Assembly (NCBI RefSeq): GCF_900176655.1
Contig: NZ_LT838842.1
Coordinates: 1-52,727, forward strand
Direction: 5' to 3'
DNA: 52,727 nucleotides
Source of the DNA: Collinsella vaginalis
Lineage (GTDB): Bacteria; Actinomycetota; Coriobacteriia; Coriobacteriales; Coriobacteriaceae
Made by a program: the position numbers and the translations under genes. The notes under the pieces were generated by a model. The model did no database searches and was not told where the DNA came from. It saw nothing but the letters and a program-made list of their open reading frames with translations. Shown here piece after piece: positions 4,287 through 15,331 of the stretch. Position 1 is the stretch's first letter, and each line of letters starts with the position of its first letter.

Positions 4287-5516
4287 TTATGCGATCTGGA
4301 TCACCCGTGCGGTCACACTCGCCGGCAGGCCTTTTGCGTCGCGCACGGTGGCGAAGACCAGCGGCGTCGATCCCTCGCCCTCGCTCGCCGGGAAGTCCCC
4401 GAGCCCGATCGAGCGATCGGCCGACGAGACCCCCTGATACTGCTCGGCATCCGTATCCAGCAGGTAGTGGGCGGACTGCGTCTTGATGAGAACGCGCGAT
4501 CCGGAGAACATGATCTGCGCGGCAGGCTCACGGTTGAAGTACACGTAGGGTCCGCCCTCACGCCCGATGAACGTTCCCATCTGGCCCAAGCTCCCCCGCG
4601 AATCGTAGCTCGCCTCAATGGAGAACGCGAAGGCCGATCCGGTGTACACCGCTTCGAAGGGCCGAACGGACTCGGGCAGCACGAGCTGATCAACCTGCTT
4701 TGGCTCGGCATCCGCAAGGTCTAGCGCTGTCATGCCGTAGTAGGTCCCCTCGCTGCCGCGCACGCGAGGCGCTATGGTGAGGATGCCCGCCGCAACACGG
4801 GGATGCGTGGCGAAGCGCCCCGTCGACTCCCAGATGCCCGACCCTTGGGTGTCGCCTAGGTTCCATCGATAGGCGACTGACGTCTCCGAGCTCTTGCTTC
4901 CGGACGCGAGCGGCATCTTCTGCCAGATGACCGAGGTACCGGTGCAGGTGAAGGGCGACGGCTCCCAATCGGCATCGCCGGAATCGAGCTGCGCGGCCTG
5001 GCCACTGAGGGCCCCGTTCTTGAACCCCTGGCCGAGCAGCACCCAGGCTCCGGTCGCGTAATCGATCTCGATCCACGCATACACACCCGAGGAGCACCGG
5101 ACGTCGTAGAACGAGTACCCGCGCCCCTGGGTCGCGTCCTCGATCAGCGTGGTGATCGCGCCGCTCGAAAGCGAGAGGACGCCCAGGGTGTTGGGATGCG
5201 TGGCGGATTCTGGCGCGAGCATGACAGCCGCCCAGGTTCCCTCGGAATGGAAGGGAACCGTTCCCAAGGGAAGCGACCAGGTCTGTGTTGCGTTGACGCC
5301 GAGATCGGCCTCAGCGTACTCCGACAGCGCATCGACGATCTTGGACGAATCGGTCACCACCTGGGGCGCTCCCGATGTGGACTGCTGATCGCTCTGGCCC
5401 GAGGAGCAGCCGACGAGCGTGATGGCCGCAAGGGCGGCGCCCGTGGCGATGGTTCCCGCGGCAAAGCTGCGGCGCGAGATGCCCCCCGCGCTATCGAAGA
5501 GATCCCGGATGCTCAT
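4287..5516 (-). CDS. Tat-exported lipoprotein, probable beta-propeller-like
   Basis: 409-residue protein of unknown function. The N-terminus has a twin-arginine motif (SRRSFAAG) and hydrophobic core ending in a lipobox (LVGC, Cys near 37), so it should be folded in the cytosol, exported by Tat and lipid-anchored outside. The mature part has repeating blocks with W/Y-rich strands (WAAVML, YAWIEI, VIWQKM, YRWNLG, FAFSIE), which suggests a beta-propeller, but I cannot name a family. Its ATG overlaps the TGA of the TSCPD gene upstream by four bases (ATGA), so the two are translated together. Confidence 0.8.
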   Translation of the reverse strand: MSIRDLFDSAGGISRRSFAAGTIATGAALAAITLVGCSSGQSDQQSTSGAPQVVTDSSKIVDALSEYAEADLGVNATQTWSLPLGTVPFHSEGTWAAVMLAPESATHPNTLGVLSLSSGAITTLIEDATQGRGYSFYDVRCSSGVYAWIEIDYATGAWVLLGQGFKNGALSGQAAQLDSGDADWEPSPFTCTGTSVIWQKMPLASGSKSSETSVAYRWNLGDTQGSGIWESTGRFATHPRVAAGILTIAPRVRGSEGTYYGMTALDLADAEPKQVDQLVLPESVRPFEAVYTGSAFAFSIEASYDSRGSLGQMGTFIGREGGPYVYFNREPAAQIMFSGSRVLIKTQSAHYLLDTDAEQYQGVSSADRSIGLGDFPASEGEGSTPLVFATVRDAKGLPASVTARVIQIA

Positions 5517-6115: not shown

Positions 6116-6808
6116 CTACGACGTGGCCTCCGTGCCCTTGGTCAGACTCGCCTGGAAGTTCTGGGGGATGGTCCAGCCCTTGGGCGCCGCGGTGACGGTG
6201 CCGTCATCAAGCGGGAACTCCGTCCAGCCGTCGGGCACCGGCGTGTACACGCCGAAGGTATGGCAGCCCGCGCACGTGAACACGCTCTGATCGTGCATCA
6301 GATGGCAGCTGTTGCACTGCTGTACGCCGTGTTGCGTGCTGTGCGGGTCGAACGTCCAGTCAGCCGTGGAGGACTCCGTGGCGCCAGGCATCACCCCCGC
6401 CGCCAGATGGCATCCGCTCTGCAGGCAGAAGTCATTCGTGAACTCGACCTTCTTGAACGGGAGCTCATAGGTGCCCGTGACGGTCATCTGAATCTCATGC
6501 AGCATCTGCGGCAGCGTCGCCTCGTGGCAGCTCAGGCACTGGTTGTTCGCCACACCGCGATGCTTGGACACCAGCGTGGTGGTGTCGTTCACCAGGGTGT
6601 CGTAGTACTTGCCCATGGTGGTGTGGCAGATCACGTCGCAGCACTCAGGCGTGGCGTGCCATGCCCAACCGGCGACGCCGATGGCGGTGACGACCAGCAC
6701 GATGGCGGCGATGATCGGCAGCCGGCGACGCTTCCAATCGATCTTCTTCTTTTGAGGCGCCTGCTCGGAGCTCTCCTCCGTGGCGGCGTCTTTGACCTCG
6801 TCAGCCAT
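6116..6808 (-). CDS. Membrane-anchored pentaheme c-type cytochrome
   Basis: Probable electron carrier between the membrane pool or periplasmic partner and the neighbouring oxidoreductase. The 230-residue protein has a charged cytosolic leader, one membrane anchor (about 31-50) and an extracytoplasmic domain with five heme-attachment sites: C57-x3-C61-H62 (or C56-x4-C61), C91-x2-C94-H95, C128-x4-C133-H134, C165-x2-C168-H169 and C179-x2-C182-H183. Two of the five sites have non-canonical spacing. Layout resembles NapC/NrfH or cytochrome c3-type electron-transfer proteins. It is the last gene of a three-gene operon, 19 bp after the AOR-family gene. Heme attachment needs a cytochrome c maturation system, which is not in this window. 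Confidence 0.85.
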   Translation of the reverse strand: MADEVKDAATEESSEQAPQKKKIDWKRRRLPIIAAIVLVVTAIGVAGWAWHATPECCDVICHTTMGKYYDTLVNDTTTLVSKHRGVANNQCLSCHEATLPQMLHEIQMTVTGTYELPFKKVEFTNDFCLQSGCHLAAGVMPGATESSTADWTFDPHSTQHGVQQCNSCHLMHDQSVFTCAGCHTFGVYTPVPDGWTEFPLDDGTVTAAPKGWTIPQNFQASLTKGTEATS

Positions 6809-6827
6809 GCTCTCTTCCCTCCCTTGG

Positions 6828-9065
6828 TTACGCGCTCAGCGCCGGGTTATCAGCGCAGTACTTCTCAAGAACCCGGTCGTAGGTGCGCGTACGATCATCA
6901 TACTTCGCACCATCCTTGCCGAGAAGGCCGAGGCCGTCGAGATCGTCGGCGACACCCTTCATATCGAGGTCCTCGAGGCAGGCGCGCGTGGGGCAACCGA
7001 GCTCCTCGTCCCAGCCGAACCGCTTGTAGAGCATCGTGAGCGACTGCTTCCAGTCGTCGCGGTCCATCTTGATGGTGCCGGCGGTGAAGACCTGGATGTC
7101 CGGGTCGATGGTGAAGACCCACTCGGTGATGACGTCGTGCACGCCGCGCATGTCGTTGCAGCCGATGTTGCCGTCCTTGTCGCGCATGCCGCGCACAGTG
7201 GCGGCGCGCTGCAGGGTCATGATGCGCTCGGCAGACTTGTAGAGGTCGTCGATCGTGACCTTGTGCCCGGTCACCGCCGTGTAGAACTGGGCCTCGAGAT
7301 CGAGGTCGCCGCGGTAGCTACGCTCCTTGGCCGGCGCCATGGCCATAGGCCACACCCAGTTGCAGAGGGTGAGCGAGTCGTGCAGGACATCGGTGACGAT
7401 GCTCCACCAGACGAACTCAACCTTGGCGTCGTTGATGGGGGTGTAGTTCTTGTCGGCGTCGACGGCGCCCTCGCCCCACATCTCCTTGCCCATCTCCTGC
7501 TTGAGCTCGATGGGCAGGCCGCAGCCCTGGAAGTTCACCGCGGAGTGGATCATGTCGTCGCGGTTGAACATCATGTTGTAGAGGCCGCCCACCTGGCCGA
7601 AGCACTCGATGGAGTGGTGAACGGGCCAGCCGCGGTAGTTGATGAGGGCCGAGCGCTTGTCGTCGAACCAGGACTCGTCGTTCCACTGCTTGGTCCAGAC
7701 CTCAGGCCCGTGACCCAGCCAGGAGATCGGCTTGTTCTCCGTGTCGTTGGAGGCGATGTCCGTGAGGATCTTGATGAACGGCGTGCCGTCACCGGTCATG
7801 ATCTTGTCGAACTCGTAGCCGGCGAACTGGTCACCGAGCTCGCGCTCGAGGATGCCGTCAACATAGGTGTGGGCGATGTCGCGGTAGAGCTGCGCGTAGT
7901 TGCACCAGAGACCGAGGTCGTCGACGGTGGCCTGGATCAGCAGGTTGTAGATCACGGCCTGCTCGGTGAGCTTGCCGTCGTCGGTGGCGGTGCCCGGGAC
8001 CTTCATCATGGACTGCATGTACGCCGAGAACGGGAAGTTCGGCACGCAGGTGTTGCCCATGGACTCGTAGCCGGTCTTCTCGAGCACGGTGGGGTGCTTG
8101 ACATGGGCGTAGCAGCGGACGGGGCAACCGTGGCAGCCACCCATCTTGACCGTGTACTTCTCCGCCTCGGGGCCGAGGTCCTTCGTCGACTTCATGCAGC
8201 GGTAGCCCATGGTGTTGGGCTCGAAGGGCTTCGGCTCGCCCGTCTCGATGGGGCCGCCCTCGGCGGCCGCCCAGTACAGGCCCTTCCTGGCCGTCCAGCG
8301 GGACCCCTTGTCGTAGTACTCGGCCCAGGACTGCTGGGTGCTCGGCACCACGTGGTTGTTGTTCGAGCCGAGCACCTGGGCGATCATGTAATCCGAGAGG
8401 TCGGCGACCATCTGCGGGTCGGCCACGTTGACGGCCTTGGTGCCGCGCACGACGACGGCCTTGACCTTCTTGGAGCCGAGGACCGCACCCAGGCCCGCAC
8501 CCGCGGAGTGCGAGCGGGAGTTGATGACGCAGGCGTAAGGCAGCATGTTCTCGCCCGCCGGGCCGATGGCGGCCACGCAGCAGTCGAGACCGTGCTTCTT
8601 GCAGAGCGCCTCGGTGGTCTCGCGGGTGCCCTTGCCCCACAGGGCCGAGGCGTCCTCGATCGCGATCTTGTCGTCATCGATGTGGATGTAGACCGGCTTG
8701 TCAGCCTTGCCCTCGATGATCAGGCCATCGTGGCCCGAGAACTTGAGCTTGGCGCCCAGCTGACCGCCGCAGTGGCAGTCCACCACAAGGTGGTCCGTCG
8801 TGAACGTGGAGAGCGTCGCCCAGGTGGAGCGGCCCGCCAGCGGCACGCCGGCTCCCGTGAGGGGCCCGACGGCCAGGACGGCCTTGTTCTCCTCGTCCAT
8901 CCAGTCGGTGCCCGCGGGGACCTCGTCGTACATGATCTTGTTCGCGAAGCCCATGCCGCCGATGTAGTTCTGCTGCAGATCGGCGTCGGACTCCTCGGTG
9001 ATGCTTCCCGTAGAAAGGTTGACGCGCGCGATGTAGCCCGCCCACCCGTATGAAATATCAGCCAT
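6828..9065 (-). CDS. Aldehyde:ferredoxin oxidoreductase-family tungsten/molybdenum enzyme
   Basis: 745-residue member of the AOR family, which carries a bis-pterin tungsten (or molybdenum) site and one [4Fe-4S] cluster. Seen: N-terminal AOR domain with GGMGFANKI near 36 and GPLTGAGVPLAGRS near 67; cluster cysteines C311-x2-C314-x3-C318 (GCHGCPVRC), with C568 in DSLTLCNW a likely fourth ligand. It has no export signal and should be cytosolic unless carried with the Tat-exported ferredoxin. The company of a four-cluster ferredoxin and multiheme cytochrome resembles E. coli YdhV-type systems more than classic soluble AORs. The substrate is unknown; carboxylate/aldehyde couples are typical of the family. 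Starts at an ATG with AGGAGA eight bases upstream, 16 bp after the ferredoxin gene. Confidence 0.9.
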   Translation of the reverse strand: MADISYGWAGYIARVNLSTGSITEESDADLQQNYIGGMGFANKIMYDEVPAGTDWMDEENKAVLAVGPLTGAGVPLAGRSTWATLSTFTTDHLVVDCHCGGQLGAKLKFSGHDGLIIEGKADKPVYIHIDDDKIAIEDASALWGKGTRETTEALCKKHGLDCCVAAIGPAGENMLPYACVINSRSHSAGAGLGAVLGSKKVKAVVVRGTKAVNVADPQMVADLSDYMIAQVLGSNNNHVVPSTQQSWAEYYDKGSRWTARKGLYWAAAEGGPIETGEPKPFEPNTMGYRCMKSTKDLGPEAEKYTVKMGGCHGCPVRCYAHVKHPTVLEKTGYESMGNTCVPNFPFSAYMQSMMKVPGTATDDGKLTEQAVIYNLLIQATVDDLGLWCNYAQLYRDIAHTYVDGILERELGDQFAGYEFDKIMTGDGTPFIKILTDIASNDTENKPISWLGHGPEVWTKQWNDESWFDDKRSALINYRGWPVHHSIECFGQVGGLYNMMFNRDDMIHSAVNFQGCGLPIELKQEMGKEMWGEGAVDADKNYTPINDAKVEFVWWSIVTDVLHDSLTLCNWVWPMAMAPAKERSYRGDLDLEAQFYTAVTGHKVTIDDLYKSAERIMTLQRAATVRGMRDKDGNIGCNDMRGVHDVITEWVFTIDPDIQVFTAGTIKMDRDDWKQSLTMLYKRFGWDEELGCPTRACLEDLDMKGVADDLDGLGLLGKDGAKYDDRTRTYDRVLEKYCADNPALSA

Positions 9066-9081
9066 GCCTATCTCCTAACGC

Positions 9082-9804
9082 TTACGCGAGCTTGCCGCCG
9101 GCGATGAAATCCTGCTGCTCGCTCACAAGCGGCAGCGGATTCTCCTGGCGGGTCGGGCCGGAGGAGTGGTTGACATCCTCCCACTTGACGAGCTCGAGGG
9201 CACCGTTGGGGCACTGGTCCGCGCAGCGGCCGCAGGCGATGCACTTGGTTGACTTCGCCGTCTGCGTGTTGACCACGGGCATGTGCCACGGGCAGGCGGC
9301 GACGCAGGTGCCGCAGCCCACGCAGCGCTCGGGGTCGACGTCGCGCACGCCGCTGTCTTCCGTGCGGATGGCGCCGTACGGGCAGGCCGTCTGGCAGAGC
9401 GCGGTCTTGCACATGTGGCAGGTGCGGACGTTCCACTCCATGGAGTAGTACACGCCGTCGCCGGATCCGAGCTCGGAGCCGTAGTTCAAACCGTCGTTCA
9501 CGTGGATGCGCGCGGCCGCCGGCTGCGAGGTGCCGTCGTTCTTGAGCGTGCAGCTCATCTCGCAACGCTGGCATCCCGTGCAGCGCGCGCGGTTGACCTT
9601 GAGCACATGGCTCGGGGTCGCGTAGAAGTCGACCTTCCCCTTTGAGTTCGCGGGAGCGGCGACGGCCGTCTCGGGCAGCAACCCGAGCGCCGCCATGCTC
9701 GCGACGAACGCGCCTGAGACCTTCACAAACCCGCGACGGGTGAAGAAGGGGTCGAGGCGGTCCGCGCCGGAGCCGACATGCTCCAAGGCGGTGTTCTCTT
9801 TCAT
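9082..9804 (-). CDS. Tat-exported ferredoxin-like protein with four [4Fe-4S] clusters
   Basis: Electron-transfer subunit of the DmsB/NrfC/YdhY type. From the ATG at 9804 (GGGGAGGG upstream) it has 240 residues: twin-arginine motif FTRRGFVKVSG (RR at 23-24) with hydrophobic stretch to about 50, then four cysteine groups: C75/78/81/85, C129/132/137/141, C161/164/167/171 and C188/191/194/198. The frame is open further upstream, but that extension would put 17 residues before the Tat signal and has no better ribosome site. It is first in the operon with the AOR-family enzyme and pentaheme cytochrome, and probably passes electrons between them. Confidence 0.9.
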   Translation of the reverse strand: MKENTALEHVGSGADRLDPFFTRRGFVKVSGAFVASMAALGLLPETAVAAPANSKGKVDFYATPSHVLKVNRARCTGCQRCEMSCTLKNDGTSQPAAARIHVNDGLNYGSELGSGDGVYYSMEWNVRTCHMCKTALCQTACPYGAIRTEDSGVRDVDPERCVGCGTCVAACPWHMPVVNTQTAKSTKCIACGRCADQCPNGALELVKWEDVNHSSGPTRQENPLPLVSEQQDFIAGGKLA

Positions 9805-10330
9805 AGTTCCCTCCCCTAACTGCTCTGCGCCCTCAGCGGGGGCGCACGTTTCCATGCCGATACGGCGCGCGGCGACGCACGCCTATCTCACCACCGTCCA
9901 TTGTGGAGCGTCCGTGTAGCGACGCGTCCCCTTCTTGGTGGTAACTTTGCAATCGAAACAAGGAATTCCAGCTCAAGGACGTCACCTATTATAGGTGACC
10001 TCATCGACGGGCCTGCGAGAATTCGCCAGGAAAGGGGCACAACAATGTGTAGAGAGCCCGTTTGAGAGGCGCGACGGCAGCTGTGCCTACGAGGACCGGC
10101 GTAGGGCATGCGGGGCGGGGGTAGGCGGCAACCAGCACGACCCGGCCTCCATGGTGTCGGGGCCGCAAACCGCGCTCCGGGATCTGGTCTATTCGCTTGT
10201 CTGCAAAGCGCATGCCCCATCGACATCTGTCTGTGCGCGGGGTGAATCGCTGGGCTTGCGAGGTCGTTCTCGCGCCCAACCGTCCCCCGAGGGTTCACAA
10301 TGGACGGAATTGCAATCAGGAGGATGATCG
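9805..10330. other. Divergent intergenic region between oxidoreductase operon and radical SAM gene
   Basis: 526 bp with no credible gene. It must serve the minus-strand oxidoreductase operon and the plus-strand radical SAM gene. The only striking signal is the palindrome at 9981-9999; if the -10 inside it is used, the minus transcript has a leader of roughly 175 nt, long enough for post-transcriptional control. Confidence 0.55.
9981..9999 (-). promoter_or_regulatory. Perfect palindrome overlapping a TATAAT -10, probable operator
   Basis: GTCACCTATTATAGGTGAC is a 19-bp inverted repeat (8 bp arms around a 3-bp centre). On the minus strand it contains TATAAT, so a dimeric regulator bound here would cover the promoter of the ferredoxin-AOR-cytochrome operon. 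The arms do not match FNR (TTGAT/ATCAA) or typical CRP (TGTGA/TCACA) half-sites exactly. The regulator is unknown; the LuxR protein at 11986-13584 is one candidate. Confidence 0.6.
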
Positions 10331-11683
10331 ATGCTTTCAGAACGCCTGCTGTCCAAGACCATCGGCTTGGGCGCCGTGAACCTGTTCAAGTCGAAGACCG
10401 TGGCGGAGTCGACGCTCCCCGCACCCGTTCCCGGCCATGAGTACCTGCTCTACGTGCACGTCCCGTTCTGCGACGTGCTCTGCCCCTACTGCTCGTTCAC
10501 GCGCTTCCCCTATAAGGAGGAGCTGGGCCGACGCTACTTCAAGGCCCTGCGCGCCGAGCTCAAGATGATCCACGACCTCGGATACCAGCCGCCGAGCGCC
10601 TACATCGGCGGAGGCACACCCACGATCATGATGGACGAGCTCGAGCGCACGATCGACTACATGCGCGAGCTCTTCCCCACCATTACCGAGGTGTCGAGCG
10701 AGACGAACCCGCCACACCTCGACCGAGAGCGGCTGAGTCGCCTCTCACGCATGGTGCAGCGCTTCTCCGTCGGCGTGCAGAGCTTCGACAACGGCCTGCT
10801 CACGCGCATGGACCGCTACAACAAGTACGGGAGCGCCGAGGAGATCGTCCAGCGCATCCAGAACGTCGCGGACATGTTCCAGACCTTCAACGTGGACATG
10901 ATCTTCAACTTCCCCGGCCAGACGCCTGAAATGGTCCTGCGCGACATCGAGACCTTCAAGACCACCGGCGCCAACCAGATCACCTACTACCCGCTCATGG
11001 CCTCCCCTGGGTCCGAGCATCTCATGCAGACCTGCTTCCACGGGCAGGTTGACTACCGAAACGAACGCGCCCTCTACAACACGATCTTCGACCAGATGAC
11101 CGCCCCCGTGGAGGGCAGTGGCGCGGGGTTCTACGCCACCGACGTCTACACCTTCGCGCGGGATCGCGACGCCATGATCGACGAGTACGTGGTCGATTAC
11201 GGCGAGTTCGTTGCCGCTGGCTGCGGCGGGTACTCGTTCCTGGGCAGCGTGATCCACAACAACGACTCCTCGCTCTCGGGCTACTGTGACCGCGTTGAAC
11301 GCGGAAGCCTCAGCGTCGCAAGCAAGATCGACATGGGCGCGGCCAACGCGAAGCGCTACCGCATGGGCCGCGAGCTCTTCGGCCTGCGCCTGGACAATCG
11401 GCGCTGGAGGCAGGACTTCGGTCGCTACATCCAGTACGACCTGCCGGTTGAGTACGGTTACCTCGCTGCCAACGGGGCGTTCGACGTCAACAACGCCGAC
11501 GAGCTGACCCTCACCCGCAAAGGGCGCTACCTGGTGCTCGTCATGATGCGACAGATCTTCATCGGCATGAACACCGAGCGGGACCGTCTCCGGACCCTGC
11601 TCCCCGAGGGCGAGCGCAGCTGGTTCGCAGACGCCGCGGCAAAGCAGGTGGCAGCAGCCCGCGAGGCCGACGGAGTGGCGTAG
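10331..11683 (+). CDS. Radical SAM protein of the HemN/HemW/ChuW family
   Basis: 450-residue radical SAM enzyme. The cluster motif is C47-x3-C51-x2-C54 (CDVLCPYC) in YVHVPFC, followed by YIGGGTPT near 90 and SVGVQSFD near 147, all typical of the coproporphyrinogen oxidase-like group. This group includes HemN (oxygen-independent coproporphyrinogen oxidase), HemW (heme chaperone) and ChuW/HutW (anaerobic heme-opening methyltransferase, about this length). The position next to a multiheme cytochrome operon supports a heme-related job, but which one cannot be decided. Starts at an ATG with CAGGAGG upstream and ends at a strong terminator. Confidence 0.8.
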   Translation: MLSERLLSKTIGLGAVNLFKSKTVAESTLPAPVPGHEYLLYVHVPFCDVLCPYCSFTRFPYKEELGRRYFKALRAELKMIHDLGYQPPSAYIGGGTPTIMMDELERTIDYMRELFPTITEVSSETNPPHLDRERLSRLSRMVQRFSVGVQSFDNGLLTRMDRYNKYGSAEEIVQRIQNVADMFQTFNVDMIFNFPGQTPEMVLRDIETFKTTGANQITYYPLMASPGSEHLMQTCFHGQVDYRNERALYNTIFDQMTAPVEGSGAGFYATDVYTFARDRDAMIDEYVVDYGEFVAAGCGGYSFLGSVIHNNDSSLSGYCDRVERGSLSVASKIDMGAANAKRYRMGRELFGLRLDNRRWRQDFGRYIQYDLPVEYGYLAANGAFDVNNADELTLTRKGRYLVLVMMRQIFIGMNTERDRLRTLLPEGERSWFADAAAKQVAAAREADGVA

Positions 11684-11985: not shown

Positions 11986-13584
11986 CTAACGGCCGTACTC
12001 GTTGATGTAGTCCAGGATCTCCTGGCGCGAGTGCAGATCGGTCTTGTCGTAGATGCGCTTGATATGGGTGTGCACCGTGTTGGGTGAGAGCTGCAGCTCA
12101 TCGCTGACGCGCGCCTGAGTGTGACCGAGCGCATAGAGCGTGAGCACCTCGACCTCGCGTCCGGTGAGGCCGAATCGCTGGCCGATCTCCAGCACCGAGG
12201 TGGCGATGTGCACATCGGGGGACCTGCTCGGCAGCGCGACCTCCTCCTGCGGGGAGATGGCGAGCACGCCCATGAGCGGGCGGCGGGGAGCATCCCCCTC
12301 CTGGAGGCCGTCCGGGTCCTCAGCCGCGCGTGCCGCCTTGGCCGCCGCAACCTCAGCAGCCGCCTGCACCTCCCCCTGCTCGCTCGGCGATGCGAGCAGC
12401 CGCGTGTAGACCACCTGAGCGCTGATGAGCACGAAGAAGCCCATGAATGCGATGATGGCCGCGGCATTGGAGGGAACGACTGCGGTGATCAGGGCATCCA
12501 CATGCATCCCAGCCACCGTGAGGATGTTCATGGCGATCCACGCCGCACAGGCGTAGTAGTACGGATCGCGCCAGCCGAAGCTGATGAAGGCGATGGTCAT
12601 GTACCAGACGAAGGCCTGCAGCACGAGGGAAGATGCGAGGACGAGGGCCGCGCCCATGGACGGGTCGGCGGGGACGAGGGCGAAGAGGATCGTGCCGACC
12701 CCGAGCAGAAGCTCCATCGCCACCCATATGCTGGTAGTGAGCGCCCGCATGCGCGACACGAGCGCGAACCGGACCCAGAGCGCCGAGACGACGATGACCG
12801 CCACGAGAACGATCGCGCGCGACGCCGGGTTGAGATGGATGGCCTGGCCCACGGGAAATCCCCGTCCCATGCCCATGGGGATCGAGATGAACCAGATGCC
12901 GAGCGCCGCGACCACCAGGAAGCTCCTGTTTGAGAAATGATTCTCGTCGGTGCCGAAGTAGCTCTCCGAAACGGCTGGGAAGGAGTCGCTCGGGACGCCC
13001 ATGACTCGTGAGGTGCGAACGGGTCCGAACTGCATGAACATCAGGGCGACACAGGTGAAGTGACCTACCATCGCCGGCATGAAGGAGAGCGCGAAGGTGA
13101 GGGCCTCGGCGAGGGCGAGGGCGGAGAACACCACGACGACCACGGCTTGCGCCGAGGTGCCCCGCAGCTTGCGCAGCCAATAAAACTGCAGAAGCGTGGC
13201 ACCGAGGGTGACCCCCGCCTGGAGCAGCAGGTCAACGGGAGCAAGCAGGGGGACGCCGGCCGCATCGGCCGACGCAAGGGCAAGCGAGCCGAGGCCGCCC
13301 AAATGGATGGAGATGAAGACTCCAAGCGAGATGGAGCGCTTCGAGAACCGCTTCACGACCAGCGTCGAGAGGAAAAGCGCGCCGATGACCACCGAGGCCG
13401 CGATGAGCGACCATCCGTCATAGGTTGAAATGCCGGTGCTGGCATGGGCCTGCTGGATGGTGATGTTGACCACGGCGGCGGCAAGCGAGATGCCGGCGAC
13501 CGAGGGAAGCAGGATCCGGTAGCCCTCAAGGCTGAGCGGGGGCATGCTCGCTGCACCGCTGCCTTGCTGACCTGCGCTTTGCAC
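11986..13584 (-). CDS. Membrane-bound LuxR-family transcription regulator
   Basis: 532-residue protein with about a dozen hydrophobic segments (roughly residues 25-410) joined to a C-terminal LuxR-type helix-turn-helix (about 470-530: GLTGREVEVLTLYALGHTQA, then LSPNTVHTHIKRIYDK). The linker (about 415-450) is Ala/Glu-rich. Such many-pass LuxR proteins are a known, strongly expanded and poorly understood group in Coriobacteriia; they are thought to sense small molecules in the membrane and often sit beside reductase genes. Starts at a GTG at 13584 with AGGAGAGG upstream. Candidate regulator of the oxidoreductase operon or of the divergent gene at 13700; neither link is shown. Confidence 0.88.
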   Translation of the reverse strand: MQSAGQQGSGAASMPPLSLEGYRILLPSVAGISLAAAVVNITIQQAHASTGISTYDGWSLIAASVVIGALFLSTLVVKRFSKRSISLGVFISIHLGGLGSLALASADAAGVPLLAPVDLLLQAGVTLGATLLQFYWLRKLRGTSAQAVVVVVFSALALAEALTFALSFMPAMVGHFTCVALMFMQFGPVRTSRVMGVPSDSFPAVSESYFGTDENHFSNRSFLVVAALGIWFISIPMGMGRGFPVGQAIHLNPASRAIVLVAVIVVSALWVRFALVSRMRALTTSIWVAMELLLGVGTILFALVPADPSMGAALVLASSLVLQAFVWYMTIAFISFGWRDPYYYACAAWIAMNILTVAGMHVDALITAVVPSNAAAIIAFMGFFVLISAQVVYTRLLASPSEQGEVQAAAEVAAAKAARAAEDPDGLQEGDAPRRPLMGVLAISPQEEVALPSRSPDVHIATSVLEIGQRFGLTGREVEVLTLYALGHTQARVSDELQLSPNTVHTHIKRIYDKTDLHSRQEILDYINEYGR

Positions 13585-13699
13585 CGTTTACCTCTCCTTT
13601 TCCCACAGGGTACCCTGAACCAGGTGATGCAACAGTATACCTTGTACTACACTGATGCGAGATGTTCTGCAGGGTTTTCGACCGTCGTGGGGAGGCGTT

Positions 13700-14695
13700 A
13701 TGGTCGATCGAGATCGTTCCGTGAGCGAAGGGCTCGACGGGCGCGATGCCTTCGCACGTGAGGGAATTCATACGTCCTCGATGGACGCAGAGAAGGTCAG
13801 CGAGACACATGATGACCTCGTGGGTTCGTTGGCCCGGGATATGGAAACGGGCTCAGGATCCCTGCCTGACACAAACATGAGCGTCGCGGAGGGCGTCGTC
13901 AGCCCCGCCGGCGACCCTGCGGCCGCGCCATCTTCAACGAACGCCGCTCAACTCGAGGACGCCGCAGACCCCGGCACTGCGGATCTAGACGTCGCCCCGC
14001 TTTCTGACGAGGAGCGCGTCGAGATCCGCAAGCGGAATGCACTCATCCGCGCGTGGGATCGCGCCCTCAGCGATATGCGCCAGCGCTCGTACGAGGGAAA
14101 GCTCACCACACCGGCTCGATGGCGCAAGCTCTCGCTCGCCCCTGCCGGATGGAATGCCAAGGCGTTCGAGGAATCCCTGATCGACTACATCGAATCGCAC
14201 GACCACGCCGACGACTCCCCCGCGCTCAATGAGCCCCCTGCACCCGCTCCCCTCGACGTGCAGCTCGAAGGCGTCGAACACACGGACGACGATCCCCTGC
14301 CTGAACTCTCCGTTGCAGATGTGGTCATGCTCTTCGGAAAAAAGACGGTCTACCTGTACTCCAAGCCGCTGCTCTCACACAGCTTCGCCCACGCCCTCTT
14401 CATGACATCCGAAGACGATGACCTCTCGACCTTCATTGACATGGTGCGCACGGAATCGCGCCTGTACCCGCGTCCCGTCTCACGCGATACCTTCATGAAC
14501 CCGCCCTACCTCTGGGCGCCCTCGAAGACCGCTCAGGTGTTCGATCAGGTGGTGGCCGACGGATCATTCCCCGACATCCATGAGGTCAGAGCCAGCAACG
14601 GTGTCGTCAACTACTACTCTTCCCTATATCTCAGCGATGCCCAGGCACAGGCGCTCGCCGAGTGGTATGAGGTTGAGAAGCCGCAAAATCCCTGA
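13700..14695 (+). CDS. Hypothetical protein, possibly YdhW-like
   Basis: 331 residues from the ATG at 13700 (GGGGAGG upstream; an in-frame ATG at 13655 lacks a good site). Residues 1-100 are acidic and low-complexity; about 105-165 form a charged helical region; the C-terminal 130 residues (from LSVADVVMLFGKKTVYLYSK) look like a compact domain ending near WYEVEKP. I have a weak impression of similarity to YdhW, an uncharacterised protein of the E. coli ydhYVWXUT oxidoreductase cluster; this would fit the AOR-family operon nearby but needs a profile search. No signal peptide, no metal motif. Probably co-transcribed with the NifU-like gene 54 bp downstream. Confidence 0.6.
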   Translation: MVDRDRSVSEGLDGRDAFAREGIHTSSMDAEKVSETHDDLVGSLARDMETGSGSLPDTNMSVAEGVVSPAGDPAAAPSSTNAAQLEDAADPGTADLDVAPLSDEERVEIRKRNALIRAWDRALSDMRQRSYEGKLTTPARWRKLSLAPAGWNAKAFEESLIDYIESHDHADDSPALNEPPAPAPLDVQLEGVEHTDDDPLPELSVADVVMLFGKKTVYLYSKPLLSHSFAHALFMTSEDDDLSTFIDMVRTESRLYPRPVSRDTFMNPPYLWAPSKTAQVFDQVVADGSFPDIHEVRASNGVVNYYSSLYLSDAQAQALAEWYEVEKPQNP

Positions 14696-14749
14696 TGTCG
14701 ACCGCAGTGTGATCTGCCTGGCCCTCGTACCGTTTTGGAAAGGAATCTC

Positions 14750-15331
14750 ATGCCCAAGCACCTGACCGAGGACACTCCCCTCCTCCGGACCCCTGACATG
14801 TACCAGATTGAGAACGATGCCCCCATCACCGAGTACGCGAACGAGACGCTCGATCTCATCGCCGATGCACGCACCAGCGGCATCCCCGACGGTGCCAACG
14901 CGTTCTGCAGCGTGGGCAAGGAGAAGCGCGGCACGGTGCAGATGCAGCTCTTCGCACGCATCAACCCTGCAACCGACATTTTTGAACAGGTCGGCTTTCG
15001 CAGCCACGGTTGCCTGGCCGCCATCGCCTGCGCCGCAGCCATTTCGCAGATGCTGCCGGGCAAGACACTTGAAGAGGCGCTCGCGATCACACGGGACGAG
15101 ATCGAAGCCGTCACCGGACCGATCCCCAAGGGCCGCGACTACACGCTGTATTTTGGGGTCGAGGCCATCAAAGCGCTGGTGGGCGACTACCTCATCCGCG
15201 AGAAGCAGCTCAAACTGGAAGCACTCGACCGAATCGTGCGCTGCGAACGCATGACGATGGAGTGCCTGCTCACTGAGAACTGCTCCCTGCGGGACAGCCG
15301 CGTTGATCTTGAGCTTGGCGAGGACTGGTAA
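14750..15331 (+). CDS. NifU/IscU-like iron-sulfur scaffold protein
   Basis: 193-residue protein resembling the IscU/NifU N-terminal scaffold that assembles Fe-S clusters on three cysteines. Seen: C53 (GANAFCSVG), C88 and C94 (SHGCLAAIACAAAIS), and the end motif GVEAIKALVGDYL. The usual third scaffold cysteine, which precedes that last motif as HCS, is replaced by YTLY; instead three cysteines (C165, C171, C178) sit in a C-terminal extension. It may therefore be a variant scaffold or delivery factor, possibly for the Fe-S-rich oxidoreductase operon. The start is the ATG at 14750 with GGAAAGGA upstream. Confidence 0.75.
   Translation: MPKHLTEDTPLLRTPDMYQIENDAPITEYANETLDLIADARTSGIPDGANAFCSVGKEKRGTVQMQLFARINPATDIFEQVGFRSHGCLAAIACAAAISQMLPGKTLEEALAITRDEIEAVTGPIPKGRDYTLYFGVEAIKALVGDYLIREKQLKLEALDRIVRCERMTMECLLTENCSLRDSRVDLELGEDW

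Follow-up and report, generated by a model that had tools for sequence, protein, structure and literature searches.

A conserved operon for a YdhV-type AOR-family enzyme, a Tat-signal ferredoxin and a multihaem cytochrome in Collinsella and its relatives

Enzymes of the AOR/WOR family have been sorted into five classes, of which Class V, confined to clade 41, combines a ferredoxin carrying a Tat signal with membrane parts and catalyses an unknown reaction, according to the main text of PMC13328260, in which E. coli YdhV and Collinsella are already listed as members. The sole Class V enzyme assayed, CsWOR41, oxidised none of 46 aldehydes and only its L subunit was recovered, as reported in the same main text. 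YdhV and BamB both have a cysteine ligand to the metal, which is Cys336 in YdhV, and are without the second-shell residues of the aldehyde-oxidising AORs (PMC12096430). On the electron-transfer side, NapC/NrfH-like cytochromes usually pass quinol electrons to reductases, and Cgr1 has been modelled as an electron carrier from quinone to reductase (PMC5953540). Class V WORs occur widely among gut bacteria. The Collinsella variant described here narrows the question of what they do to a minimal three-gene system in culturable species.

We analysed a window of 52,727 nucleotides of Collinsella vaginalis DNA (contig NZ_LT838842.1), in which an operon on the minus strand (6116-9804) carries the genes for a ferredoxin, an AOR-family enzyme and a cytochrome, in that order and with gaps of 16 and 19 bp. 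Both the reading frames and their spacing are as claimed in an earlier note on this DNA. The same note had named the E. coli ydh operon as the nearest described layout, which holds for the core (YdhY, YdhV and YdhW), but the described class to be compared is the Class V WOR of PMC13328260 (main text). E. coli YdhYVWXUT, a Class V WOR of clade 41 whose function is unknown, has a homologous ferredoxin, catalytic subunit and YdhW as well as the same metal-ligand cysteine; it further comprises YdhX (a second ferredoxin), YdhU (a cytochrome of b type) and YdhT, whereas the window has a multihaem c-type cytochrome in the membrane place, a YdhW homologue about 4 kb off and an additional IscU-like gene. 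The cardiac glycoside reductase Cgr1-Cgr2 of E. lenta resembles the locus in pairing a TM-anchored NapC/NrfH-like cytochrome with an exported enzyme (PMC5953540), although the family match is weak and the Cgr2 side is a flavoprotein, in contrast to a YdhV-type Mo/W enzyme with its ferredoxin in Collinsella. BamB, a subunit of class II benzoyl-CoA reductase (PDB relative 4z3w), shares the fold family and the cysteine metal ligand (PMC12096430), but belongs to the cytoplasmic Bam complex, whereas the Collinsella enzyme is accompanied by a Tat-linked ferredoxin and a cytochrome.

The three gene products

The first gene (9082-9804, minus strand; 240 aa) encodes a YdhY-like ferredoxin, that is, a WorS-type subunit. 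Its ATG at position 9804 follows AGGGGAGGG and has a good ribosome-binding site; a longer reading frame, to 9855, has an unlikely start. The N-terminus contains a twin-arginine motif (FFTRRGFVKV) and then a hydrophobic stretch, together a putative Tat signal, and the 16 cysteines fall into four sets of the 4Fe-4S kind. The protein is 39.9% identical to E. coli YdhY and reaches 184.5 bits against PRK09898, under the cut-off of 213. These features bear out the description of a four-cluster ferredoxin predicted to be exported by Tat, and a WorS ferredoxin with such a signal is one of the marks of a Class V WOR that the locus carries.

The second gene (6828-9065, minus strand) encodes the catalytic subunit of 745 aa. 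In the profile search this enzyme passed AFOR_N and AFOR_C and reached 971.7 bits against the NCBIfam YdhV equivalog PRK09849 (cut-off 868), which confirms the proposed AOR-family membership and answers the suggested check against YdhV. The class placement rests on this profile and on the identity to E. coli YdhV (51% over 716 aa), from which the enzyme is predicted to be a YdhV-type Class V WOR rather than an aldehyde oxidoreductase sensu stricto. Cys340 aligns with Cys336 of YdhV and is invariant in 14 of 14 aligned sequences; Cys311, Cys314, Cys318 and Cys568 are invariant too and fit a 4Fe-4S site. An AOR sensu stricto has no protein ligand to the metal, whereas here an invariant cysteine occupies the ligand position of YdhV and BamB, and we propose a putative Cys-ligated Mo or W bis-pterin as the metal centre. 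As for the second-shell set Thr243, Glu313, Tyr427 and His448, the alignment is variable around Glu313, a region in which the enzyme matches 1AOR weakly (13.8 bits) and the Glu313 column has no confident counterpart. A further membrane-associated subunit, another mark of Class V, is present as the one-TM cytochrome encoded 19 bp downstream. The earlier note had guessed at an aldehyde/carboxylate pair as substrate. This guess is disfavoured because Cys340 corresponds to the metal-ligand cysteine of the YdhV/BamB type, and the inactivity of CsWOR41 on the 46 aldehydes (PMC13328260, main text) likewise leaves it unsupported. The pair would appear to be a weak candidate, and the result argues against effort on aldehydes alone.

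The third gene (6116-6808, minus strand; 230 aa) encodes a putative membrane-anchored cytochrome c of Cgr1/NapC/NrfH-like type, with a single N-terminal hydrophobic (TM) segment followed by the putative haem motifs CX3CH, CXXCH, CX4CH, CXXCH and CXXCH. None of the five varies among 28 relatives from four genera, and their chance origin is therefore excluded. The membrane-anchored pentaheme cytochrome of the earlier note stands as regards the TM segment and the five motifs, but 'pentahaem' is to be read as a motif count that includes two non-canonical haem motifs (CX3CH and CX4CH). The protein reaches 29.8 bits against Cytochrom_c3_2 (cut-off 25) and 94.9 bits against the Cgr1 equivalog (NCBIfam NF051471), far short of the cut-off of 340; in the broad sense of a TM anchor with multiple haem c motifs it fits the NapC/NrfH/Cgr1-like group. 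The AF2 model was unusable (pLDDT 43).

Conservation and co-inherited genes

Of 396 Coriobacteriia genomes, 105 have a YdhV-type enzyme at E <= 1e-100, and 98 of these exceed the family cut-off. We compared 79 loci (the window included) with 81 enzyme genes, 28 of the loci being from Coriobacteriaceae and 51 from other families. The order ferredoxin-enzyme-cytochrome was conserved in all 28 Coriobacteriaceae loci, which rules out chance neighbours. The two gaps span about 9-36 and 18-27 bp, apart from a single overlap that reflects the choice of start. The same order occurred in 12 named or MAG records of Collinsella or Coriobacteriaceae, among them C. stercoris DSM 13279, C. intestinalis DSM 13280 and C. 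tanakaei YIT 12063, some of these records being identical to survey genomes. In contrast, none of the 51 loci from other families had a Cgr1-like cytochrome beside the enzyme, and 46 of them had instead parts of a module of Tat molybdopterin enzyme, Fe-S protein and NrfD; in one representative locus, Pfam matches bore the module out. The Class V WORs of these other Coriobacteriia (mostly of our family code f3, probably Eggerthellaceae) have an enzyme mostly 55-66% identical and share the Tat ferredoxin, the YdhW and IscU-like neighbours and membrane LuxR regulators; they differ in that the ferredoxin gene is usually divergent and is followed by genes for a TorD-like protein, the Tat molybdopterin enzyme, the Fe-S protein and NrfD. 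Among the families surveyed, the cytochrome wiring of a YdhV-type enzyme thus appears to be confined to Coriobacteriaceae. The earlier note had taken the pairing of the two genes as a point on which its proposal would stand or fall, and this pairing is constant in the 28 loci within the family but absent from the 51 outside. Its central claim, that the enzyme is wired to a membrane cytochrome, is supported by the 28 of 28 pairings and by the presence of cytochrome-c maturation genes only in operon-bearing genomes. A cytochrome for Coriobacteria is not mentioned in the main text of PMC13328260. Elsewhere in Coriobacteriia, a distant enzyme locus (35% identical; L061:4337-13307) has a Tat ferredoxin and a YdhW homologue and then proteins with 5, 11 and 7 CXXCH motifs, which is another cytochrome-linked layout.

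For co-occurrence, 26 enzyme-positive and 20 enzyme-negative genomes of the family were compared, 46 in all. An IscU-like gene, a YdhW homologue and the CcmF/CcmC family were each present in 26 of 26 enzyme-positive and 0 of 20 enzyme-negative genomes. The cytochrome profile matched in all 26 positives and, among the 20 negatives, gave one match at E = 0.008, taken as noise; in 23 of the 26 the operon's cytochrome is the only strong member of its own family, and three genomes have a second one away from the operon. Nitrite respiration by NrfA or the like was considered as a reason for the maturation genes and rejected, NrfA being absent from all 46 genomes. TatC was present in all 46. MoeA was of no use as a marker since it occurs in both groups (25 of 26 and 17 of 20); as its distribution does not follow the trait, the trait is not simply one of general gene loss. 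About five changes of the trait fall on the TatC tree, three of them on well-supported branches, and 15 of the 20 enzyme-negative genomes belong to a single tight group. With only three to five independent changes, there are therefore too few for a formal co-occurrence test.

Two of the co-inherited genes lie about 4 kb from the operon in the window. The product of the YdhW homologue (13655-14695, plus strand), a gene found near the enzyme gene in most loci, matches E. coli YdhW with 28.9% identity over 180 aa (73.9 bits), and homologues were present in 71 other loci of the survey. Its AF2 model (window 13955-14692) was confident (pLDDT 95) and consists of two similar strand-strand-helix units. 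In comparisons with the PDB, no Foldseek match fell below E 0.001 and the VIA-align Z values did not reach 8, the similarity being mostly in a winged-helix-like part, so that there was no convincing match from which to assign a function. The neighbouring gene (14735-15331, plus strand) encodes an IscU/NifU_N-like protein whose cysteines are differently placed. Of the three scaffold cysteines, numbered as in E. coli IscU, the protein retains the counterpart of Cys63 but not those of Cys37 and Cys106, and new cysteines (Cys99, 170, 177 and 183) are found in 27 of 28 sequences; it is thus no scaffold of the canonical kind. From its association it is a candidate maturation factor, and that it matures the YdhV-type enzyme is our guess. 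Four genomes (genus code g5) have the enzyme on one contig and both the IscU-like and YdhW genes on another. IscU-like proteins with these losses and with a conserved set of cysteines gained at the C-terminal side are tied to YdhV-type enzymes in two families (homologues in L055, L056, L090 and L105).

The maturation genes are ordered ccmE-F-A-B-C, with a short ORF after ccmC, and lie anywhere from about 10 kb off the operon to other contigs. CcmE, here from Gram-positive bacteria of the gut, has the haem motif CXXXY (CPSKY; L121:14232-14921, L114:15055-15729 and L115), known from archaea and Desulfovibrio (PMC9084895). No CcmG, CcmH or CcmI was recognised in the ccm-region stretches read. In the genome to which the window belongs, a run of N lies inside ccmE (L113, about 11250) and may be an assembly gap or a masked stretch.

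Electron donor and direction of electron flow

We consider it fairly probable that the operon encodes an extracytoplasmic respiratory enzyme of YdhV type, joined to the membrane by a Cgr1/NrfH-like cytochrome and acting more likely as a reductase. The AOR-family subunit has no signal of its own, and the Tat signal of the ferredoxin would carry it across the membrane folded and loaded with its cofactors. Outside, the Cys-ligated Mo/W-bis-pterin centre and its 4Fe-4S cluster, the ferredoxin with its four clusters and the haems of the TM-anchored cytochrome would form the electron path, and the cytochrome would in turn exchange electrons with a membrane donor, probably menaquinol where this is present. 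By analogy with Cgr1-Cgr2, the favoured direction would be from quinol to cytochrome, ferredoxin and enzyme, with reduction of a substrate. The YdhW homologue and the aberrant IscU-like protein probably assist assembly, and a streamlined Ccm system would attach the haems.

The donor is the largest gap in this wiring model. MenA is encoded in the same genome as the window (L122:9312-10454), and no other menaquinone gene was recognised by eye nearby. It was detected in only 9 of the 26 enzyme-positive genomes, and menaquinol can therefore not be assumed as the donor in the remainder; the UbiA family as a whole was found in 10 of the 26 and in 0 of the 20 enzyme-negative genomes. Where MenA went undetected, a salvaged quinone, a missed MenA or another donor may account for the gap, and the patchy distribution of MenA may reflect salvage of a precursor.

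The same components could also be run as a dehydrogenase, with the substrate oxidised outside and the cytochrome delivering electrons to the quinone pool or another acceptor, a reading to which we give a minor though appreciable chance. The aldehyde/carboxylate couple lies at about -0.58 V and menaquinone at about -0.07 V, and carboxylate reduction is thermodynamically out of reach with menaquinol as donor. An aldehyde/carboxylate couple, if real, would therefore permit only oxidation when coupled to menaquinone. Moreover, oxidations are the reactions for which the AOR fold is chiefly known (PMC12096430). The Cys-ligated type of the active site speaks against the dehydrogenase reading, however, as do the lack of aldehyde activity in CsWOR41 (PMC13328260, main text) and the fact that cytochromes of the NapC/NrfH/Cgr1 type normally feed reductases (PMC5953540). 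Taking active-site type and cytochrome type together, we put a reductase for a higher-potential compound at somewhat better than an even chance against a dehydrogenase.

Two further readings concern the association itself. The three genomes with a second cytochrome of the family, and the two thirds of enzyme-positive genomes in which MenA was undetected, could suggest that the cytochrome is a conduit to or from extracellular acceptors or another enzyme and that the AOR-ferredoxin pair is merely co-regulated with it; yet the gene order is tight and invariant, the genes were lost together in several lineages and most genomes have no other known partner of the cytochrome family, which makes such a conduit very improbable. 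It is also unlikely, if slightly less so, that common descent alone accounts for the co-occurrence, unrelated genes having been lost jointly in one reductive lineage or a few. The tight group of 15 enzyme-negative genomes and the small number of independent changes would be expected under joint loss, but at least three changes are supported, the YdhW-IscU pair tracks the trait even from another contig, and MoeA and TatC do not follow it, so that the loss is not general.

The conserved unit is a variant within an enzyme class that is known but dark in function, and it brings an electron-transfer subunit of its own together with a clear set of co-inherited helper genes. It is tempting, if speculative, to see the operon as the sole c-type cytochrome respiration of many species of the Collinsella family, with ccm, IscU-like and YdhW genes all serving one exported, Cys-ligated AOR-family reductase of a gut compound. 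We know of no described terminal respiratory reductase that has a BamB-like Mo/W site. In genomes where almost no use for cytochrome c maturation was found apart from the operon, effects on growth and on haem should lend themselves to interpretation. Furthermore, the YdhW family and the IscU-like protein are accessory genes to include when making active enzyme, and their omission may bear on the inactivity of subunits expressed without partners.

Upstream region and flanking genes

Upstream of the ferredoxin gene, a non-coding stretch (9805-9999) ends in a palindrome with arms GTCACCT and AGGTGAC around ATAAT (GTCACCTATAATAGGTGAC; 9981-9999), a candidate operator about 190 bp ahead of the ferredoxin start. 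Its score was matched by 0.9% of shuffles. Equidistant palindromes were found in at least 9 of the 28 Coriobacteriaceae loci, their arms varying among lineages with the symmetry around an AA-rich centre retained. A LuxR-type protein with about nine membrane segments (11986-13584, minus strand), whose homologues lie close to the enzyme gene in a number of other loci, is a candidate regulator, and its action on the palindrome is a guess. An independent promoter for the cytochrome gene was considered and set aside, the 19-bp gap giving scant room for one; a sigma-70 scan yielded zero matches anywhere and is hence uninformative on this point.

Divergent from the operon is a gene for a HemN/coproporphyrinogen-oxidase-like radical SAM protein (10331-11683; PRK08629), with homologues near the enzyme gene in some relatives. 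Downstream of the operon, the gene at 4287-5516 encodes a protein with a twin-arginine motif and a lipobox-like start, which has no Pfam match and has homologues at the equivalent place in several relatives.
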